Source: Halorubrum sp. 48-1-W (GTDB lineage Archaea; Halobacteriota; Halobacteria; Halobacteriales; Haloferacaceae). From it: a DNA stretch of 54,767 bases. The translations under genes and the position numbers were made by a program. The notes under the pieces are model-generated. The model was not told the origin of the DNA, made no database searches, and was given only the letters and a program-made list of their open reading frames with translations. Within the stretch, counting starts at the first letter, position 1, and the number at the start of each line of letters is the position of its first letter. Below, in pieces: positions 25,407-42,000 of the stretch. Location: NCBI RefSeq assembly GCF_003287355.1, contig NZ_QMIM01000032.1, positions 1 to 54,767 on the forward strand, read 5' to 3'.

Positions 25407-25796
25407 CTACAGCGTCGACGGATCGGATCCGACGGTCTGCCGGATCAACGCTTCGACCGGCGGGTCGAGGGGTTCGAGTTCGACGAAGCCACCCTTCCGG
25501 TCGTACGAGACGATCCCCGCTTCCTCAAGGAGCGGGAGGTGGACGTGGACGAGTTCGATGACGAGTCGGCGGCGGTCCTCCGGGGTCTTCATCCCGCCGG
25601 CCGAGGATACGTCCCACCCGAGGAGGACGCTCACGGCCTCCTCGACCGGGTACCGTCCCTCCTCGAGCAGGAGCCACAACAGCCGTCGCCGCCGCGTCGA
25701 GGCGAGCGCGCGGTAGAGACGGTCGTCGGACAGCCGAACCGCTCCGGGCTCGGAACCGACATCGGCCTCCCTCGGCAGGTCCTTCCCGTCGTTCAT
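25407..25796 (-). CDS. DUF7344-like/ArsR-like HTH protein, partner of the DICT protein
   Basis: 129 residues. A winged-helix pattern starts with LYRALASTRRRRLLWLLLEEG, typical of haloarchaeal DUF7344-type regulators, and continues LVIELVHVHLPLLEEAGIV with the wing YDRKGGFVELEP. There is no transmembrane tail, unlike the trio at 38241-40458. TTTAATA on the minus strand at 25823-25829 is 27-33 nt upstream of the ATG. It is the first gene of the operon with the DICT protein; a regulatory pair is inferred from spacing and domain content. Confidence 0.83.
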   Translation of the reverse strand: MNDGKDLPREADVGSEPGAVRLSDDRLYRALASTRRRRLLWLLLEEGRYPVEEAVSVLLGWDVSSAGGMKTPEDRRRLVIELVHVHLPLLEEAGIVSYDRKGGFVELEPLDPPVEALIRQTVGSDPSTL

Positions 25797-36696: not shown

Positions 36697-37596
36697 CTAC
36701 GCCTCGACAGCGGCGCGTTCGAGCGCCTCGGGGTCGACGTCGGCCTCGAAGAGTCGCGCGTCGCAGGCGTCACACGTCGCCGCGAGCACGTCGTACGTCC
36801 GGCAACACGACTCGACGACGGTCGTATCGAGCGTCACGCTCCCGTCACAGGTCGGACACGTCTCCAAGAACAGCCGGAGGCTACCGAGTAGCTCGCTCTG
36901 TTGTGCCGTCGAGAGGCCGTTCCACCCGGCCCAGCGGTCGTCGAGCACGTCTACGCCAGCGAGGTCGGCGAGGAACGCCTGTCTCGATTCCCACCGACCG
37001 GCCGGGTCGCCTTCGAGGTACGCGGAGTAGGCGTGGCCGCGGTCCGCCAACTCGACGGCGTCGGGACGGACGGAGAGGAACCGCGCCAGCGCCTCCTCGT
37101 CCTCGCTCGCGTCCGCCAGAGTCCGCGCCTCGCGTCGCCACGCGTCGCGGAAGCGCTCCTCGAGGACGAAGTCGTCGATCGTCGGATCCTCGAGGAGGAC
37201 GCCGGCCTCGACGAGGGCGGTCGCGGGCTCGAACGGGAATTCACCCTCCACTCCCCCGTCGTCGGCCGATCCCCCGTCGAGGACCGTGTCGCCCACGGCG
37301 GTCGCTCCACTCGAGACGCTCCCACGGTCCGGCCCCTTGTCGAACCAGGCGAGCACCCGATCCGGGAGGTATCGCTTCGTCAGCGTCGGGGTTCCGGGAA
37401 CGAGGTAGCCGCGAACGCCGATCGTCGCCACGGCGACGGCGAACGTCGCGAGCGCCCAGCCGACCGAGACCGTCGCGACGGCGAGCGCGAGCGCGGCGGC
37501 GATGGCGAGGTTGACGATCGTGCACGGAAGACAGCGGTTCGGTCCGGTGTACCGCGGGTTTCTGAGCCAGACGGGAAGTCGCGATAACGCGTCCAT
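36697..37596 (-). CDS. Haloarchaeal membrane protein with C-terminal zinc-ribbon-like cysteines
   Basis: 299 residues. Two hydrophobic helices at about residues 27-48 and 50-68 follow a CxxC (NRCLPC) at about 22-25. A soluble acidic helical domain spans about 110-235, and a C-terminal cysteine cluster (ETCPTCDGSV, ESCCRTYD, ATCDACDARL) can hold one or two zinc ions. This suggests a membrane-anchored protein whose cytoplasmic zinc domain contacts a partner. I do not recognise a characterised family. The ATG at 37596 is preceded by CATACC at about 37622-37627. Its start faces the small-ORF region at 37795-38186. Confidence 0.8.
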   Translation of the reverse strand: MDALSRLPVWLRNPRYTGPNRCLPCTIVNLAIAAALALAVATVSVGWALATFAVAVATIGVRGYLVPGTPTLTKRYLPDRVLAWFDKGPDRGSVSSGATAVGDTVLDGGSADDGGVEGEFPFEPATALVEAGVLLEDPTIDDFVLEERFRDAWRREARTLADASEDEEALARFLSVRPDAVELADRGHAYSAYLEGDPAGRWESRQAFLADLAGVDVLDDRWAGWNGLSTAQQSELLGSLRLFLETCPTCDGSVTLDTTVVESCCRTYDVLAATCDACDARLFEADVDPEALERAAVEA

Positions 37597-37794
37597 GCTT
37601 CAGAGGAGGCGACGAAGAGACATAGGTATGACACTCCTACCGGGTCGGACCGATCCGCGAACGGGTCGACGATCTCATTTCGAGGATCTCGACGCCGTCA
37701 CCGAAAATCGTCGGTCGACTCGCGTTCAATCGGTGAGTAGTTTCGGGTTGATCGACGTCGAGACGCGTACGAGCGGAGCGGCCGACCCGACTCA

Positions 37795-38010
37795 TCCGAA
37801 CAGCGCGTTGAGGTACACCCACCGGTCCCTCGGACCGGTTCGAGCGCGGAGACGACGGGGACGCCGATCAGGGCGGCGAGGACGACGAGCAACGAATCGA
37901 GCGTCGATCGGGTCTCGGCCCGGATTCGCTCGGAGTCGGCGGGCCAGCCGAGCAGTGACGAGGGCGCGTCGTCCCCCGTCTGGAGGGCCCCACGGGATAG
38001 CCTCCCGGGT
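37795..38010 (-). pseudogene. Broken small membrane-protein gene (frameshifted)
   Basis: On the minus strand one frame encodes LLGWPADSERIRAETRSTLD and then the transmembrane-like LLVVLAALIGVPVVSALEP. After about 37835 that frame loses sense, while the neighbouring frame continues naturally as RDRWVYLNALFG and a TGA at 37795-37797. No ATG precedes the first part. The pattern fits a short membrane-protein gene damaged by one frameshift and loss of its start; a sequencing error at the GC-rich junction is the alternative. Confidence 0.45.
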
Positions 38011-38018
38011 GAACGCCG

Positions 38019-38186
38019 ATGACGCCGGACGAACCCTCCGACACTCCACACGATACTGGGATCGGTCGAGCACGGGTCGACGGTGGACGGATCGGTCGAC
38101 AGTTGGTGACGAAACGGAACGTGCTCCGTCTGTTGTTCCTGCTTTTGCTCCTCGTCCCCGTCGTCGATTACCTGACGAGCCTGTGA
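38019..38186 (+). CDS. Candidate small single-pass membrane protein
   Basis: 55 residues from ATG 38019 to TGA 38184-38186: a polar N-terminal half (MTPDEPSDTPHDTGIGRAR), then a basic stretch TKRNVLR followed by one strong hydrophobic helix (LLFLLLLLVPVVDYL, about residues 39-52). Positive residues before the helix fit the positive-inside rule. A GTG at 38106-38108 would give a 26-residue version. It has no homologue I recognise and sits beside the DUF7344-like trio, converging on its last gene. It lies within the 644-nt stretch from 37597 to 38240, which otherwise holds only the broken frame at 37795. Confidence 0.45.
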   Translation: MTPDEPSDTPHDTGIGRARVDGGRIGRQLVTKRNVLRLLFLLLLLVPVVDYLTSL

Positions 38187-38240: not shown

Positions 38241-38813
38241 TCACTCCTCGTCGAGGTCGGCACCCAACCGGTTCCGGTTCGTCTCCCGGAGGTAGACAGC
38301 CGACGATAGCAGGAACGCGGAGACGATGAATCCCAGGAGGACGGCCACCGGGATCGAGTCGAACGGCGGGAGCGCGAGTGCCTCCATCACGAGGACAGCG
38401 GCACAGCCGAGCGAGAGCCCGAGGAAGTAGTAACTCCAGGGGATCCGGCTCTCGGGGACGGGCTCGAGGTAGAACTCCACCTGCCGGGCCCGTTCGGTGA
38501 GTTCGACCCGGCCGGACTCGTCGTCGTAGCGGATCACGTCGCGATCCTCGAGCATGGGGAGGTGCGTCTGTGTCAGGCCGGCGTACACCCGTTTGCGTTG
38601 CGTCGCGACGAGTTCCTCGGCCGGCACGTCGTTCTCGCGTATCGCCACGTACTCCAGGAGGTCCTCGAACGCGACCGGACCGCCGTCGTGTGCCTTCAGG
38701 TAGCTGAGGACGTGCCGTCGCCGTTCGTTACGGAGGATCTCGAAGACCGTTTCGCGGGACAGCGTCTCCTCGGTAGCCGCGGATCGGTCCAGACGACGGC
38801 GGAGCGGACGCAT
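38241..38813 (-). CDS. DUF7344-like HTH regulator with C-terminal membrane helices (paralogue 1)
   Basis: 190 residues. A winged-helix half begins ETVFEILRNERRRHVLSYL and includes VATQRKRVYAGLTQTHLPML, EDRDVIRYDD and the wing. The C-terminal part carries two transmembrane helices, about 125-147 and 155-175, separated by a short loop, and a charged tail. Membrane tethering of a DNA-binding domain is unusual and suggests a signal-dependent membrane regulator. It follows paralogue 2 by six nucleotides on the same strand, so the two are an operon. Confidence 0.87.
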   Translation of the reverse strand: MRPLRRRLDRSAATEETLSRETVFEILRNERRRHVLSYLKAHDGGPVAFEDLLEYVAIRENDVPAEELVATQRKRVYAGLTQTHLPMLEDRDVIRYDDESGRVELTERARQVEFYLEPVPESRIPWSYYFLGLSLGCAAVLVMEALALPPFDSIPVAVLLGFIVSAFLLSSAVYLRETNRNRLGADLDEE

Positions 38814-38819
38814 CCTCGA

Positions 38820-39416
38820 TCACGCCGGTCGGGGTGTTCGGTGAACGTCGTTTCGGCGGGTTCGGTACGTGTGGACGCCCGAGGAGACGAGAAACGCCAT
38901 GACGACGACCGCCGCGGCGGACAAACAGACGGCACCGCCGGTCGTGTCGACGAGCACCGCTGCGAAAGAGAGCACCGCCGCGAGCAGTGAGAGCCCGAGA
39001 TAGTACTGTGCCCAGGGGATCTCGTGTTCGGGGACGTAATCGAGGTAGAGCTGGACGTCCTCCAGCCGTTCGGTCGGCTGTAACTCGCCGCGCCGACGGT
39101 CGTACTCGATCACCCCGGACTCGTCGAGTTTCGGGAGGTGTGTCTGTCGAAGCGCCGTATACACACGCTTTCGGTCCGCGTAGTCGGTCTCGACGATCTC
39201 CTTGTCGTTCTCCCAGGCGGCGATCGTCTCGACCATCTCGCCGAGATGGAGCGACTCCTCCGGCGACTCCCGAATGTACTCGAGCACGTATCGCCGCCGC
39301 TCGTTACAGAGGACGTCGAAGATCTCCTCGCGTGTCGGCCCCTCCGACCCGCTCTGACCGTCGTCTGTGGGGTCCATCGGCTCATCGGTTGCGCCGAGTT
39401 CGGTGGAGCCCCCCAC
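38820..39416 (-). CDS. DUF7344-like HTH regulator with C-terminal membrane helices (paralogue 2)
   Basis: 198 residues with the same layout as its neighbour: REEIFDVLCNERRRYVLEYI, DRKRVYTALRQTHLPKLDES, GVIEYDRRRGELQPTERL, then two membrane helices near 130-175 and an Arg-rich tail. The start is ambiguous: GTG 39416 is about 30 nt downstream of the T-rich TTTTTTGTAAG at 39440-39450, a leaderless arrangement; TTG 39419 and ATG 39377 are alternatives that change only the acidic head. First gene of the two-gene operon with paralogue 1. Confidence 0.85.
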   Translation of the reverse strand: MGGSTELGATDEPMDPTDDGQSGSEGPTREEIFDVLCNERRRYVLEYIRESPEESLHLGEMVETIAAWENDKEIVETDYADRKRVYTALRQTHLPKLDESGVIEYDRRRGELQPTERLEDVQLYLDYVPEHEIPWAQYYLGLSLLAAVLSFAAVLVDTTGGAVCLSAAAVVVMAFLVSSGVHTYRTRRNDVHRTPRPA

Positions 39417-39439
39417 CAACCCGGGGAGTACAGAAGACG

Positions 39440-39470
39440 CTTACAAAAAACTAATTAATTTCACATTAGT
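39440..39470. promoter_or_regulatory. T-rich promoter and ACTAAT/ATTAGT inverted repeat upstream of paralogue 2
   Basis: On the minus strand TTTTTTGTAAG (39440-39450) is the probable TATA region. Immediately upstream, ACTAAT (39450-39455) and ATTAGT (39465-39470) form a 6-bp inverted repeat around a 9-nt A/T-rich spacer, so a dimeric regulator bound here would cover the promoter's upstream side. The rest of 39471-39673 is A/T-rich with no gene; a second T/A-rich element (TTAATA, 39644-39649) faces the other way. Confidence 0.5.
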
Positions 39471-39673
39471 CAGACAATGAATCGTGTTAAGCAGCGCCGA
39501 TCGGTGACGTGTCGAACACGCGAGCGGTCACGAGACCGTCTCGAATGCTACCGAGGAGCCGTCGATAGACGATTCGAAGTAGACGGATCGAACAGGGGTA
39601 TACAAATCAATTATCCGAGAATAAATCTGATGGATGGAAAACGTTAATATGTGACGTGTTCTCTTCAGGCGTG

Positions 39674-39886
39674 ATGGCACCGAGGTCGATTCCACGGATA
39701 GTGGGTGTTCGCGGGTCCGCTGTAGGGTCATACGGGAACGGAGACGCACCCGTCGATTCGACTTCCCGTAACGAGCGCTTAACTGTACGGCCGAAACGGC
39801 CTTTCCGCCTACCGGACGAGACCGATCCGACGTGGTCGGACCGATCGGACCCGACGGGCGAAAGGGAGACGAGTACCCCAAAATGA
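39674..39886 (+). CDS. Candidate 70-residue ORF coupled to DUF7344-like paralogue 3
   Basis: ATG 39674 lies 25-30 nt after TTAATA (39644-39649), the right spacing for a leaderless start. The 70-codon frame ends with TGA 39884-39886, overlapping the ATG of paralogue 3 as ATGA. The peptide is basic and low in complexity (Arg/Ser/Pro-rich, e.g. TVRPKRPFRLPDETDP), unlike typical haloarchaeal proteins, and I recognise no homologue. It may be a real coupling peptide or a translated leader; chance is possible. Confidence 0.4.
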   Translation: MAPRSIPRIVGVRGSAVGSYGNGDAPVDSTSRNERLTVRPKRPFRLPDETDPTWSDRSDPTGERETSTPK

Positions 39887-40458
39887 ACCAGATATCAGCG
39901 GAAATAGAGAACCTCCGGGACGGCGACCGCGACGGATCGGCGGACGGTGATCCGAACCAGATCTCGACCGACGAGGTGTTCGCGCTCTTGAGCAACGAAC
40001 GACGTAGACATGTCCTTCGGTTCCTCTCGGAGAACGGCGGCGAGATCAAGCTCCGCGAACTGGCGGCGGCCATCGCCGCCGAGGAGAACGGCGTCGATCC
40101 GGCGGAGGTGACCTACACACAGCGGAAGCGGCTCTACACCTCGCTGTACCAGTCACACCTCCCGCGGATGGAACGGAGCGGCGTGGTCGAGTACGACCGG
40201 AACAGCGGACTGGTGACGCTGTCGGCGTCGGCGGACAGCTTCGACGCGTACCTCGAGGTGGTCGACGAAAACGGGTTCACCTGGTCGGAGTTCTACCTCG
40301 GGTTGACGGCGCTCTTCGCCGCGATCACCCTAGCGTACGCCACCGGAACGCCCCCGTTCGACGTGTTCGACCCGGCCGTCGTGATGGCTGTGATGACCTT
40401 CCTCCTGCTCGTCTCAGCGGTCGCTCACGTGCGGTACACGCGCGATCGGCGACTGTAG
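39883..40458 (+). CDS. DUF7344-like HTH regulator with C-terminal membrane helices (paralogue 3)
   Basis: 191 residues. Acidic head, then TDEVFALLSNERRRHVLRFL, YTQRKRLYTSLYQSHLPRME, SGVVEYDRNSGLVTL and FTWSEFYLGLTALFAAITLA, with two membrane helices (about 140-160 and 165-182) and a short Arg-rich tail. It is divergent from the other two paralogues across the A/T-rich region, so all three face one shared control region. ATG 39883 is used; no TATA element stands directly upstream, consistent with transcription from the 39644 element through the 70-residue ORF. Confidence 0.87.
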   Translation: MNQISAEIENLRDGDRDGSADGDPNQISTDEVFALLSNERRRHVLRFLSENGGEIKLRELAAAIAAEENGVDPAEVTYTQRKRLYTSLYQSHLPRMERSGVVEYDRNSGLVTLSASADSFDAYLEVVDENGFTWSEFYLGLTALFAAITLAYATGTPPFDVFDPAVVMAVMTFLLLVSAVAHVRYTRDRRL

Positions 40459-40509: not shown

Positions 40510-42000
40510 ATGGAACTGTTCTGGCATCGACGGGACCTCCGGGTCGCCGACAACGTCGGGCTCGCTGTCGCGGCCGACCGTGACACGGTCGCGCCGATCT
40601 TCGTCTTCGACCCCGACGTGCTCGCACACGCGAGCGACGTTCGCGTGCGACGCCTCCTCGACGGGCTGACTGCGCTCCGAGACGCCTACCGCGACCGCGG
40701 GAGCGACCTCCTCGTCGCCCACGGCGAGCCGGCGAGCGTCCTCCCGGCCGTCGCAGCCGGCCTCGACGCCGAACGCGTGGTCTGGAACCGGGACTACTCG
40801 GGGCTGGCTCGCGAGCGCGACGCGGCGGTGCGACGCGTGCTCGACGAGGTTGGGATAGCCCGCGAGGCCCACCAAGACAGGGTATTGCACACGCCCGACG
40901 CGATCCGGACGAACGCGGGCGACCCCTACTCCGTGTACTCCTACTACTGGAAGAAGTGGCGGGACCGCGGGAAGGACGCGCCGGTCCGGACGCCCGAGGC
41001 AGTGGACCTGGTCGACGCCTCGGTCCTCGTCGACTCCACAGCCCGCCTCGAATCGACGGGGTCCGACGAGACGGCGGGTCACGTCGAGGTCGACGTCGGC
41101 GATCTCCCGACGCCCGACTCCCTCGGGTTCGCCGAGCCGGACGCCGCGGTCGGTCCCGCCGGAACGGAGGCGGCGAGAGAGCGGCTCGACGCGTTTCTCG
41201 AAGACGACGTCTTCCGCTACGGGGACGATCGCGACTACCCCGCCAGGCGGGTGACCTCACGGCTCTCGACGTTCCTGAAGTACGGCGAGATCGGGATCCG
41301 GGAGGTGTACGCCGCCACGGAGGAGGCGATGACTGCCGCAGCGGACCGACCCGACGAGGACGCCGAGGGAAGCGTCGAGGAGTTCCAGGCACAGCTCGCG
41401 TGGGGGGAGTTCTACACGCAGGTGCTGTTTCACAACCCCGAGGTCGTCACCGAGAACTACAAGACGTACGAGGCGGGGATCGACTGGCGCGACGATCCCG
41501 AGGAGATCACGGCCTGGAAGCGCGGCGAGACGGGGTATCCGATCGTCGACGCCGGGATGCGCCAGCTCCGCGAGGAGGCGTACGTCCACAACCGCGTCCG
41601 AATGATCGTCGCCTCCTTCCTCACGAAGGACCTGCTCGCGGACTGGCGGCACGGCTACGACCACTTCCGTGAGACGCTGGCCGACCACGAGACCGGAAAC
41701 GACAACGGCGGGTGGCAGTGGGCGGCCTCGACCGGGACCGACGCACAGCCGTACTTCCGGATCTTCAACCCGATGACACAGGGCGAGCGCTACGACCCGG
41801 ACGCCGAGTACATCGCCGAGTACGTTCCCGAACTGCGCGGCGTCGACCCGGCGGTCGTCCACGGGTGGCACGAGTGCTCGCCGACCCAGCGGGCGAACGC
41901 GGCACCCGACTACCCCGACCCGATCGTCGACCACGCTGTCCGCCGTGAGGAGGCACTGACGATGTACAAGCGCGCCCGCGGCGAGGACCCCGACGAGTAG
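40510..42000 (+). CDS. phr: Deoxyribodipyrimidine photolyase (class I CPD photolyase)
   Basis: 496 residues. The N-terminal photolyase domain starts ELFWHRRDLRVADNVGLAVA and binds the antenna cofactor. The C-terminal FAD domain contains RRVTSRLSTFLKYGEIGIRE, QLAWGEFYTQVL, GYPIVDAGMRQLREEAYVHNR, VASFLTKDLLADWRHG and the flavin/DNA signature NDNGGWQWAASTGTDAQPY. The enzyme splits UV-induced cyclobutane pyrimidine dimers with blue light, as expected in sun-exposed brines. TAATTTC at 40478-40484 is about 28 nt upstream of the ATG. Monocistronic. Confidence 0.96.
   Translation: MELFWHRRDLRVADNVGLAVAADRDTVAPIFVFDPDVLAHASDVRVRRLLDGLTALRDAYRDRGSDLLVAHGEPASVLPAVAAGLDAERVVWNRDYSGLARERDAAVRRVLDEVGIAREAHQDRVLHTPDAIRTNAGDPYSVYSYYWKKWRDRGKDAPVRTPEAVDLVDASVLVDSTARLESTGSDETAGHVEVDVGDLPTPDSLGFAEPDAAVGPAGTEAARERLDAFLEDDVFRYGDDRDYPARRVTSRLSTFLKYGEIGIREVYAATEEAMTAAADRPDEDAEGSVEEFQAQLAWGEFYTQVLFHNPEVVTENYKTYEAGIDWRDDPEEITAWKRGETGYPIVDAGMRQLREEAYVHNRVRMIVASFLTKDLLADWRHGYDHFRETLADHETGNDNGGWQWAASTGTDAQPYFRIFNPMTQGERYDPDAEYIAEYVPELRGVDPAVVHGWHECSPTQRANAAPDYPDPIVDHAVRREEALTMYKRARGEDPDE

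Follow-up and report, generated by a model that had tools for sequence, protein, structure and literature searches.

Three DUF7344 genes in Halorubrum sp. 48-1-W, probably orphaned accessory regulators of a deleted TasA-type fibre locus

Introduction

Why should three related genes for membrane-tethered, predicted DNA-binding proteins be gathered around one control region? The question is raised by positions 38241-40458 of a 54,767-nucleotide stretch of DNA from Halorubrum sp. 48-1-W (contig NZ_QMIM01000032.1), which was analysed at its full length and is called the window in the following. A preliminary description of the window postulated that the three genes form a cross-regulating circuit which senses an envelope or turgor signal, and added that no function had been described for such a trio. 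The latter statement agrees with our reading of the literature, in which we found no paper naming DUF7344, the domain of unknown function shared by the three proteins, or giving it a function. Membrane-bound transcription regulators (TTRs, the ToxR/CadC-like class) are widespread (PMC10269533); Halo- and Euryarchaeal taxa are not mentioned in that paper. The analysis of the trio turned out to lead to the question of how haloarchaea decide to build an extracellular matrix.

The three genes and their products

Gene A (38241-38813, minus strand, 190 aa), gene B (38820-39416, minus strand, about 198 aa) and gene C (39883-40458, plus strand, 191 aa counted from the ATG at 39883) are all present and full-length in the window, and each codes for a DUF7344 winged helix followed by C-terminal membrane helices. 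In a Pfam profile search the matches to DUF7344 (PF24035) had E-values of 5e-25, 3e-29 and 3.5e-29 and bit scores of 88.1, 101.6 and 101.4 for A, B and C, respectively, all well over the gathering score of 27.8 bits; the claim of three DUF7344 paralogues, two running left and one running right, is thereby confirmed. Since B and A are both read leftward and are spaced by 6 nt, they likely share one transcript. The most likely start of B, as judged from alignment, is the GTG at 39416, which aligns with an ATG in the relatives, in a frame that can open at 39419; the most likely start of C is ATG 39883, the conserved MDQIS/MNQIS start, in a frame that can open at GTG 39832.

An N-terminal winged helix and two C-terminal membrane helices had been proposed for all three proteins. 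The winged helix is supported by the DUF7344 matches and, for B, by an AlphaFold2 model made from 42 window and locus sequences, in which it has a pLDDT of about 86-97 across residues 31-120 and is followed by two C-terminal helices (136-156 and 162-190). The helix pair is clear in the hydropathy analysis of A and B, but in C the second helix alone exceeds the threshold of 1.6 and the first one is weaker. According to alignment position and model, only a short linker separates the winged helix from the membrane helices in DUF7344 proteins, and in those encoded at the loci studied here one helix begins with a basic RRR which is strongly conserved, and a wing is present. The proteins have the layout of a transmembrane transcription regulator, i.e., a predicted DNA-binding domain and membrane segment(s) within one polypeptide. 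Soluble members of the family also exist, as membrane helices are lacking in a further DUF7344 protein (129 aa) encoded in the window at 25407-25796 (minus strand).

A Foldseek search with the model of B gave no significant match, the best E-value being 0.03 for MukE/MukF protein-interaction domains; MukE, MarR and ArsR winged-helix proteins were among the matches listed. Sequence search found no relative of DUF7344 with a solved structure, and the NCBIfam search gave no real match. There was no match in the PHROGs search either, so a viral origin is not indicated. In the tree each of A, B and C forms an orthologue group of its own on a long stem, and a recent tandem triplication is therefore rejected.

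The control region between B and C

The A/T-rich control region noted earlier is real: GC content is 48% at 39400-39499 and 42% at 39550-39699, compared to about 65% in the surroundings. An alignment of the B-C intergenic region shows exactly two well-conserved blocks, both kept in all seven genomes which have gene B. The block on the B side (39427-39467, minus strand) contains TGTGAAA/TTAATTAA and carries the BRE/TATA-like sequence TGTGAAATTAATTAA, and it is likely to be the BRE/TATA region of a B promoter. The block on the C side (39636-39658, plus strand), GGAAA(C)GTTAATATGTGACG, lies about 210 nt upstream of the ATG of C and is a putative C promoter element.

An inverted repeat had been reported at the left promoter. 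It exists, in the form of the AT palindrome AAACTAATTAATTT at 39448-39461 with one mismatch, but as a repeat it is unremarkable; it sits within the B block on the likely BRE/TATA box of B, and its interpretation as a specific operator, rather than as an AT palindrome of the TATA region, is not supported. The conserved blocks of B and C have no convincing common operator beyond the TATA-like sequence. A TGTGA common to the conserved blocks of B, C and the first TasA-like gene (TasA1) of the fibre operon described below was discounted as too short. Neither the comparison of conserved blocks nor the over-representation of 6- and 7-mers revealed an operator shared between the B/C promoters and the fibre promoters; across the fibre promoters the latter analysis gave composition-like words alone. 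CGGTAGG repeats are confined to one subclade of fibre promoters (L048-L050), where the intergenic region of L048, and likewise those of L049 and L050, contains several copies of the motif at distances of about 20-45 nt.

It should be mentioned that an open frame at 39674-39886 (plus strand) begins near the block upstream of C and ends with a TGA overlapping the ATG of C (ATGA). Conservation was not seen in the one relative inspected, and the frame is probably due to chance.

The fibre operon in the relatives and its deletion in the window

Close orthologues of B (68-77% identity) were found in six other genomes, all of the same genus as the window, and in none of the others among the 170 genomes searched in the family. 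In 7/7 genomes holding B the gene order is A and B leftward, C rightward and then a DNA photolyase gene (40510-42000, plus strand, in the window), a conserved right flank outside the locus proper. The trio is thus one conserved divergent block, as was proposed; the search for the same triplet in relatives, which had been suggested as a check, found it syntenic in 7 of the 170 genomes and not scattered.

The six relatives have an extra 6-9.5 kb between a gene Z and gene A. This segment contains a fourth DUF7344 gene, D, which also has membrane helices by hydropathy, and, divergent from D, genes for three large TasA-like secreted proteins. The latter match the SipW-dependent signal TIGR04088 and camelysin (PF12389), and some have a von Willebrand A domain. 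In two of the relatives, G005 and G012 (loci L039 and L040), there follow genes for two accessory secreted proteins, a SipW-like signal peptidase and a Ser/Thr-rich secreted protein. The peptidase of G005 matches TIGR02228 (9.5e-36) and NF046067 (1.2e-29), i.e., it is of the SipW/archaeal type, and it has a homologue in G012; a SipW-like peptidase is present in L039, L040 and most clusters elsewhere and absent from the operons of L041-L044. An AlphaFold2 model of one TasA-like protein is of low confidence (mean pLDDT 53), and its two best PDB matches among 350,542 chains are both Bacillus subtilis TasA (8aur and 5of2, E 1e-4). The counterparts of the deleted operon in the relatives are thus probably TasA-SipW operons, as judged by the SipW-type signal, by PF12389 and by a TasA fold on a low-confidence model.

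Inserted von Willebrand A domains are found in TasA-like proteins encoded at L039:4260-5912, L043:8010-9695 and other places. Some of these proteins have a MIDAS-like DRSGSMSGS motif, and within one leader they combine a Tat-like RR with the SipW-type signal.

Relative to L039 and L040 the window lacks about 9.0 kb; the missing part begins within D and ends within the last gene of the operon. What is left of D (37792-37900, minus strand) is the C-terminal part of about 35 codons only, with 83-93% nucleotide identity to D of L039-L044; it has suffered a further internal deletion of 56-66 bp and a frameshift, and ends in ...RWVYLNALFG followed by a stop. From about 37888 the window aligns inside the last operon gene (L039:10896, L040:7047), whose 3' end was located by base-level alignment at 37890-38012 (plus strand). 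The junction lies at about 37888-37905, and there is a short sequence similarity between the two ends of the deletion. An assembly artefact is an unlikely source of the deletion, which is located in the middle of the contig, in a window without any N, and is flanked by decaying remnants of both ends.

Two further genes of the locus survive. The small ORF S (38019-38186, plus strand), coding for 55 aa with one membrane helix (MTPDEPSDTPHDTGIGRARVDGGRIGRQLVTKRNVLRLLFLLLLLVPVVDYLTSL), stands at the 3' end of the operon in 7/7 genomes and had gone unmentioned in the preliminary description. Gene Z (36697-37596, minus strand) codes for 299 aa, with a membrane pair near the N-terminus and a zinc-ribbon-like part (CPTC...CDAC) near the C-terminus; it is found at 29 of the 42 TasA clusters described below, where it usually has the head-to-head gene on one side and another DUF7344 gene on the other. 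Because the scar aligns to D on one side and to the last operon gene on the other, we read Z and the trio as what remains of the left and right ends, respectively, of a fibre locus.

DUF7344 and TasA clusters in haloarchaea

Is the neighbourhood of DUF7344 genes and a fibre operon particular to this site? Multi-gene TasA clusters were collected from 15 well-assembled genomes of the genus together with the trio loci and the cluster on contig C9 of the window's genome (22 clusters), and from 20 other genera, one cluster for each, picked by TasA score alone. All 42 have a DUF7344 gene head-to-head with the cluster at its 5' end; only a TasA gene standing alone (L064) deviates from this rule. Given that a 3.2-Mb genome has about ten DUF7344 genes, such a head-to-head arrangement is expected by chance with a probability of about 0.2% per cluster. 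The head-to-head regulators form one clade, supported by 100/100 in the genus tree (22 rows) and by an SH-aLRT of 97 in the class-wide tree (41 rows); the AU test, run on a set that also contained one bad ORF and second genes under a wrong label, gave a p of 0.07. Judged by gene order, the association of DUF7344 with TasA-type fibre loci is strict across 21 genera, and it suggests a function in the control of surface fibres.

The clade includes D of the relatives and the gene at the C9 cluster, while A, B and C are outside it, each in its own orthologue group. Furthermore, in one genome (G035) the same position between Z and the photolyase gene is taken by a D-type fibre operon while A, B and C are missing, so the fibre operon does not need the trio. 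These two observations weaken the link of the trio to the fibre operon; they lead to the conclusion, based on phylogeny and gene order, that the trio was added to the locus in a single lineage and that D is the predicted cognate regulator.

The family has other roles besides the control of fibres, since many DUF7344 genes are away from any TasA cluster and two genomes (G042 and G045) have 13 and 9 DUF7344 genes and no TasA-like gene. The genome of the window has a second, apparently intact TasA-SipW cluster (L048, G000 C9:40000-58000) with its own head-to-head DUF7344 gene.

Models for the role of the trio

The best explanation of the trio, and one we regard as probable, is that A, B and C are orphaned accessory regulators of a deleted TasA-type fibre locus. 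The model proposes that they are membrane-anchored one-component regulators with a cytoplasmic winged helix and two C-terminal membrane helices. In the intact locus D, head-to-head with the fibre operon, would be the cognate regulator, and A, B and C would close the 3' side as accessory regulators. From the membrane the DUF7344 proteins would bind the fibre-operon promoters and their own promoters, while the state of the envelope or surface would be sensed, or passed on, by their membrane helices, and the TasA-like proteins would form surface fibres of the biofilm type. One deletion of about 9 kb in the genome of the window would have taken D and the fibre operon and left A, B, C, Z and S. Where D's operon is present the trio would modulate it; in the present genome the three proteins would now be relics, or they may act in trans on the C9 TasA-SipW cluster.

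A more far-reaching version of the model states that DUF7344 proteins are class-wide haloarchaeal membrane-tethered switches for TasA-type fibres, often with several paralogues per locus which work as a small network, and that the trio has been kept to control the second cluster in trans. We put this forward as a tentative possibility, which we would not expect to hold in full.

The trio could also be a functionless relic which drifts without a target after the loss of the operon and its cognate regulator. D and the operon are indeed gone and their scars are decaying, but the ORFs of A, B and C are intact, the promoter blocks are kept, and the second TasA-SipW cluster may still offer them a target; we consider this alternative unlikely. 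The dN/dS values of the window against its two nearest relatives, G005 and G012 (about 0.32 for A, 0.40-0.45 for B and 0.25 for C, compared to 0.17-0.30 over the trio genes between G005 and G012), are compatible with constraint and do not separate retained function from early decay. B has the highest value among the window comparisons, and its slightly faster evolution in the window (0.30 between G005 and G012) fits a slow decay too.

The circuit proposed at the outset, self-contained and sensing envelope or turgor with the fibre operon as an unrelated neighbour, draws on the divergent layout with its two conserved promoter blocks around 39427-39658 in seven genomes, and on three ORFs which stayed intact when the adjoining operon was lost. 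We think that it is improbable, as the family is tied to fibre operons in 42/42 clusters class-wide, the fibre operon is present at six of the seven trio loci, the two blocks have only TATA-like sequence convincingly in common, and A, B and C are long-diverged groups and not recent duplicates. This part of the preliminary description is unsupported: the trio flanks a larger locus, which in this genome has lost both its structural operon and D, the fourth DUF7344 gene and predicted cognate regulator. That DUF7344 proteins instead take part in fibre secretion or assembly, with a winged-helix fold that binds protein, is very improbable in view of the divergent arrangement, in which gene and operon face away from each other across one intergenic region, of the conserved basic RRR helix start and the wing, and of the many DUF7344 genes which are not near a secretion operon, even though membrane anchoring is general in the linked DUF7344 genes, winged helices can bind protein, and MukE/MukF are the best fold matches of B.

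Comparison with known systems

The orphaned regulators resemble ArnR and ArnR1 of Sulfolobus acidocaldarius, membrane-bound HTH proteins which bind promoters and control archaellum and pili (PMC6396743). Common to both are the N-terminal HTH, the two C-terminal membrane helices, the occurrence of paralogues (a pair in the case of ArnR) and, as proposed here, the control of surface filaments. However, the HTH of the ArnR family is separated from the membrane helices by a HAMP and a sensor domain, and the DUF7344 proteins (180-210 aa), including the trio, have neither; the likeness meant here is one of layout, and the ArnR targets are type-IV-pilus-like systems in contrast to TasA-type fibres. 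TTRs share with the trio the design of a one-component DNA-binding protein anchored in the membrane (PMC10269533), where DNA binding is predicted in the case of DUF7344.

In Bacillus subtilis TasA and SipW make biofilm fibres under dedicated control, and the haloarchaeal loci are similar to tapA-sipW-tasA in having TasA-like secreted proteins with SipW-type signals under what appears to be dedicated control (PMC9674648). Two or more of the six trio loci, and most of the clusters in other places, also code for a SipW-like signal peptidase. The haloarchaeal loci differ in that the linked regulator is a membrane-anchored winged helix protein encoded head-to-head with the operon, and in having several fibre paralogues, some with von Willebrand A domains. 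SinR, the regulator of tapA-sipW-tasA, is not known to have a membrane anchor. Archaeal TasA-related fibres of another phylum are the bundling pili of Pyrobaculum, TasA-like extracellular fibres as cited in PMC9674648. We found no paper linking SipW with haloarchaea.

The wider and more valuable result is the strict link between DUF7344 and the haloarchaeal TasA-type fibre locus, since the head-to-head association provides DUF7344, so far without a function, with a concrete candidate role that is cheap to test. Natural variants are at hand: the site occurs with and without the trio, and a deletion has parted the regulators from the operon.

Other arrangements of DUF7344 genes

Convergent DUF7344 pairs without TasA nearby, conserved between two genomes, are found at L045:7730-8984 (contig C69 of the window's genome) and L086:7025-8346. 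In G022, G029, G042 and G045 (L065-L067, L074, L078) two tandem DUF7344 genes are accompanied by a third one about 35-37 kb off, a set which recurs in genomes with and without TasA clusters. Finally, at L095 (G170) seven TasA-like genes are flanked by three DUF7344 genes and gene Z, and the 20 kb examined there do not code for a SipW-like peptidase.
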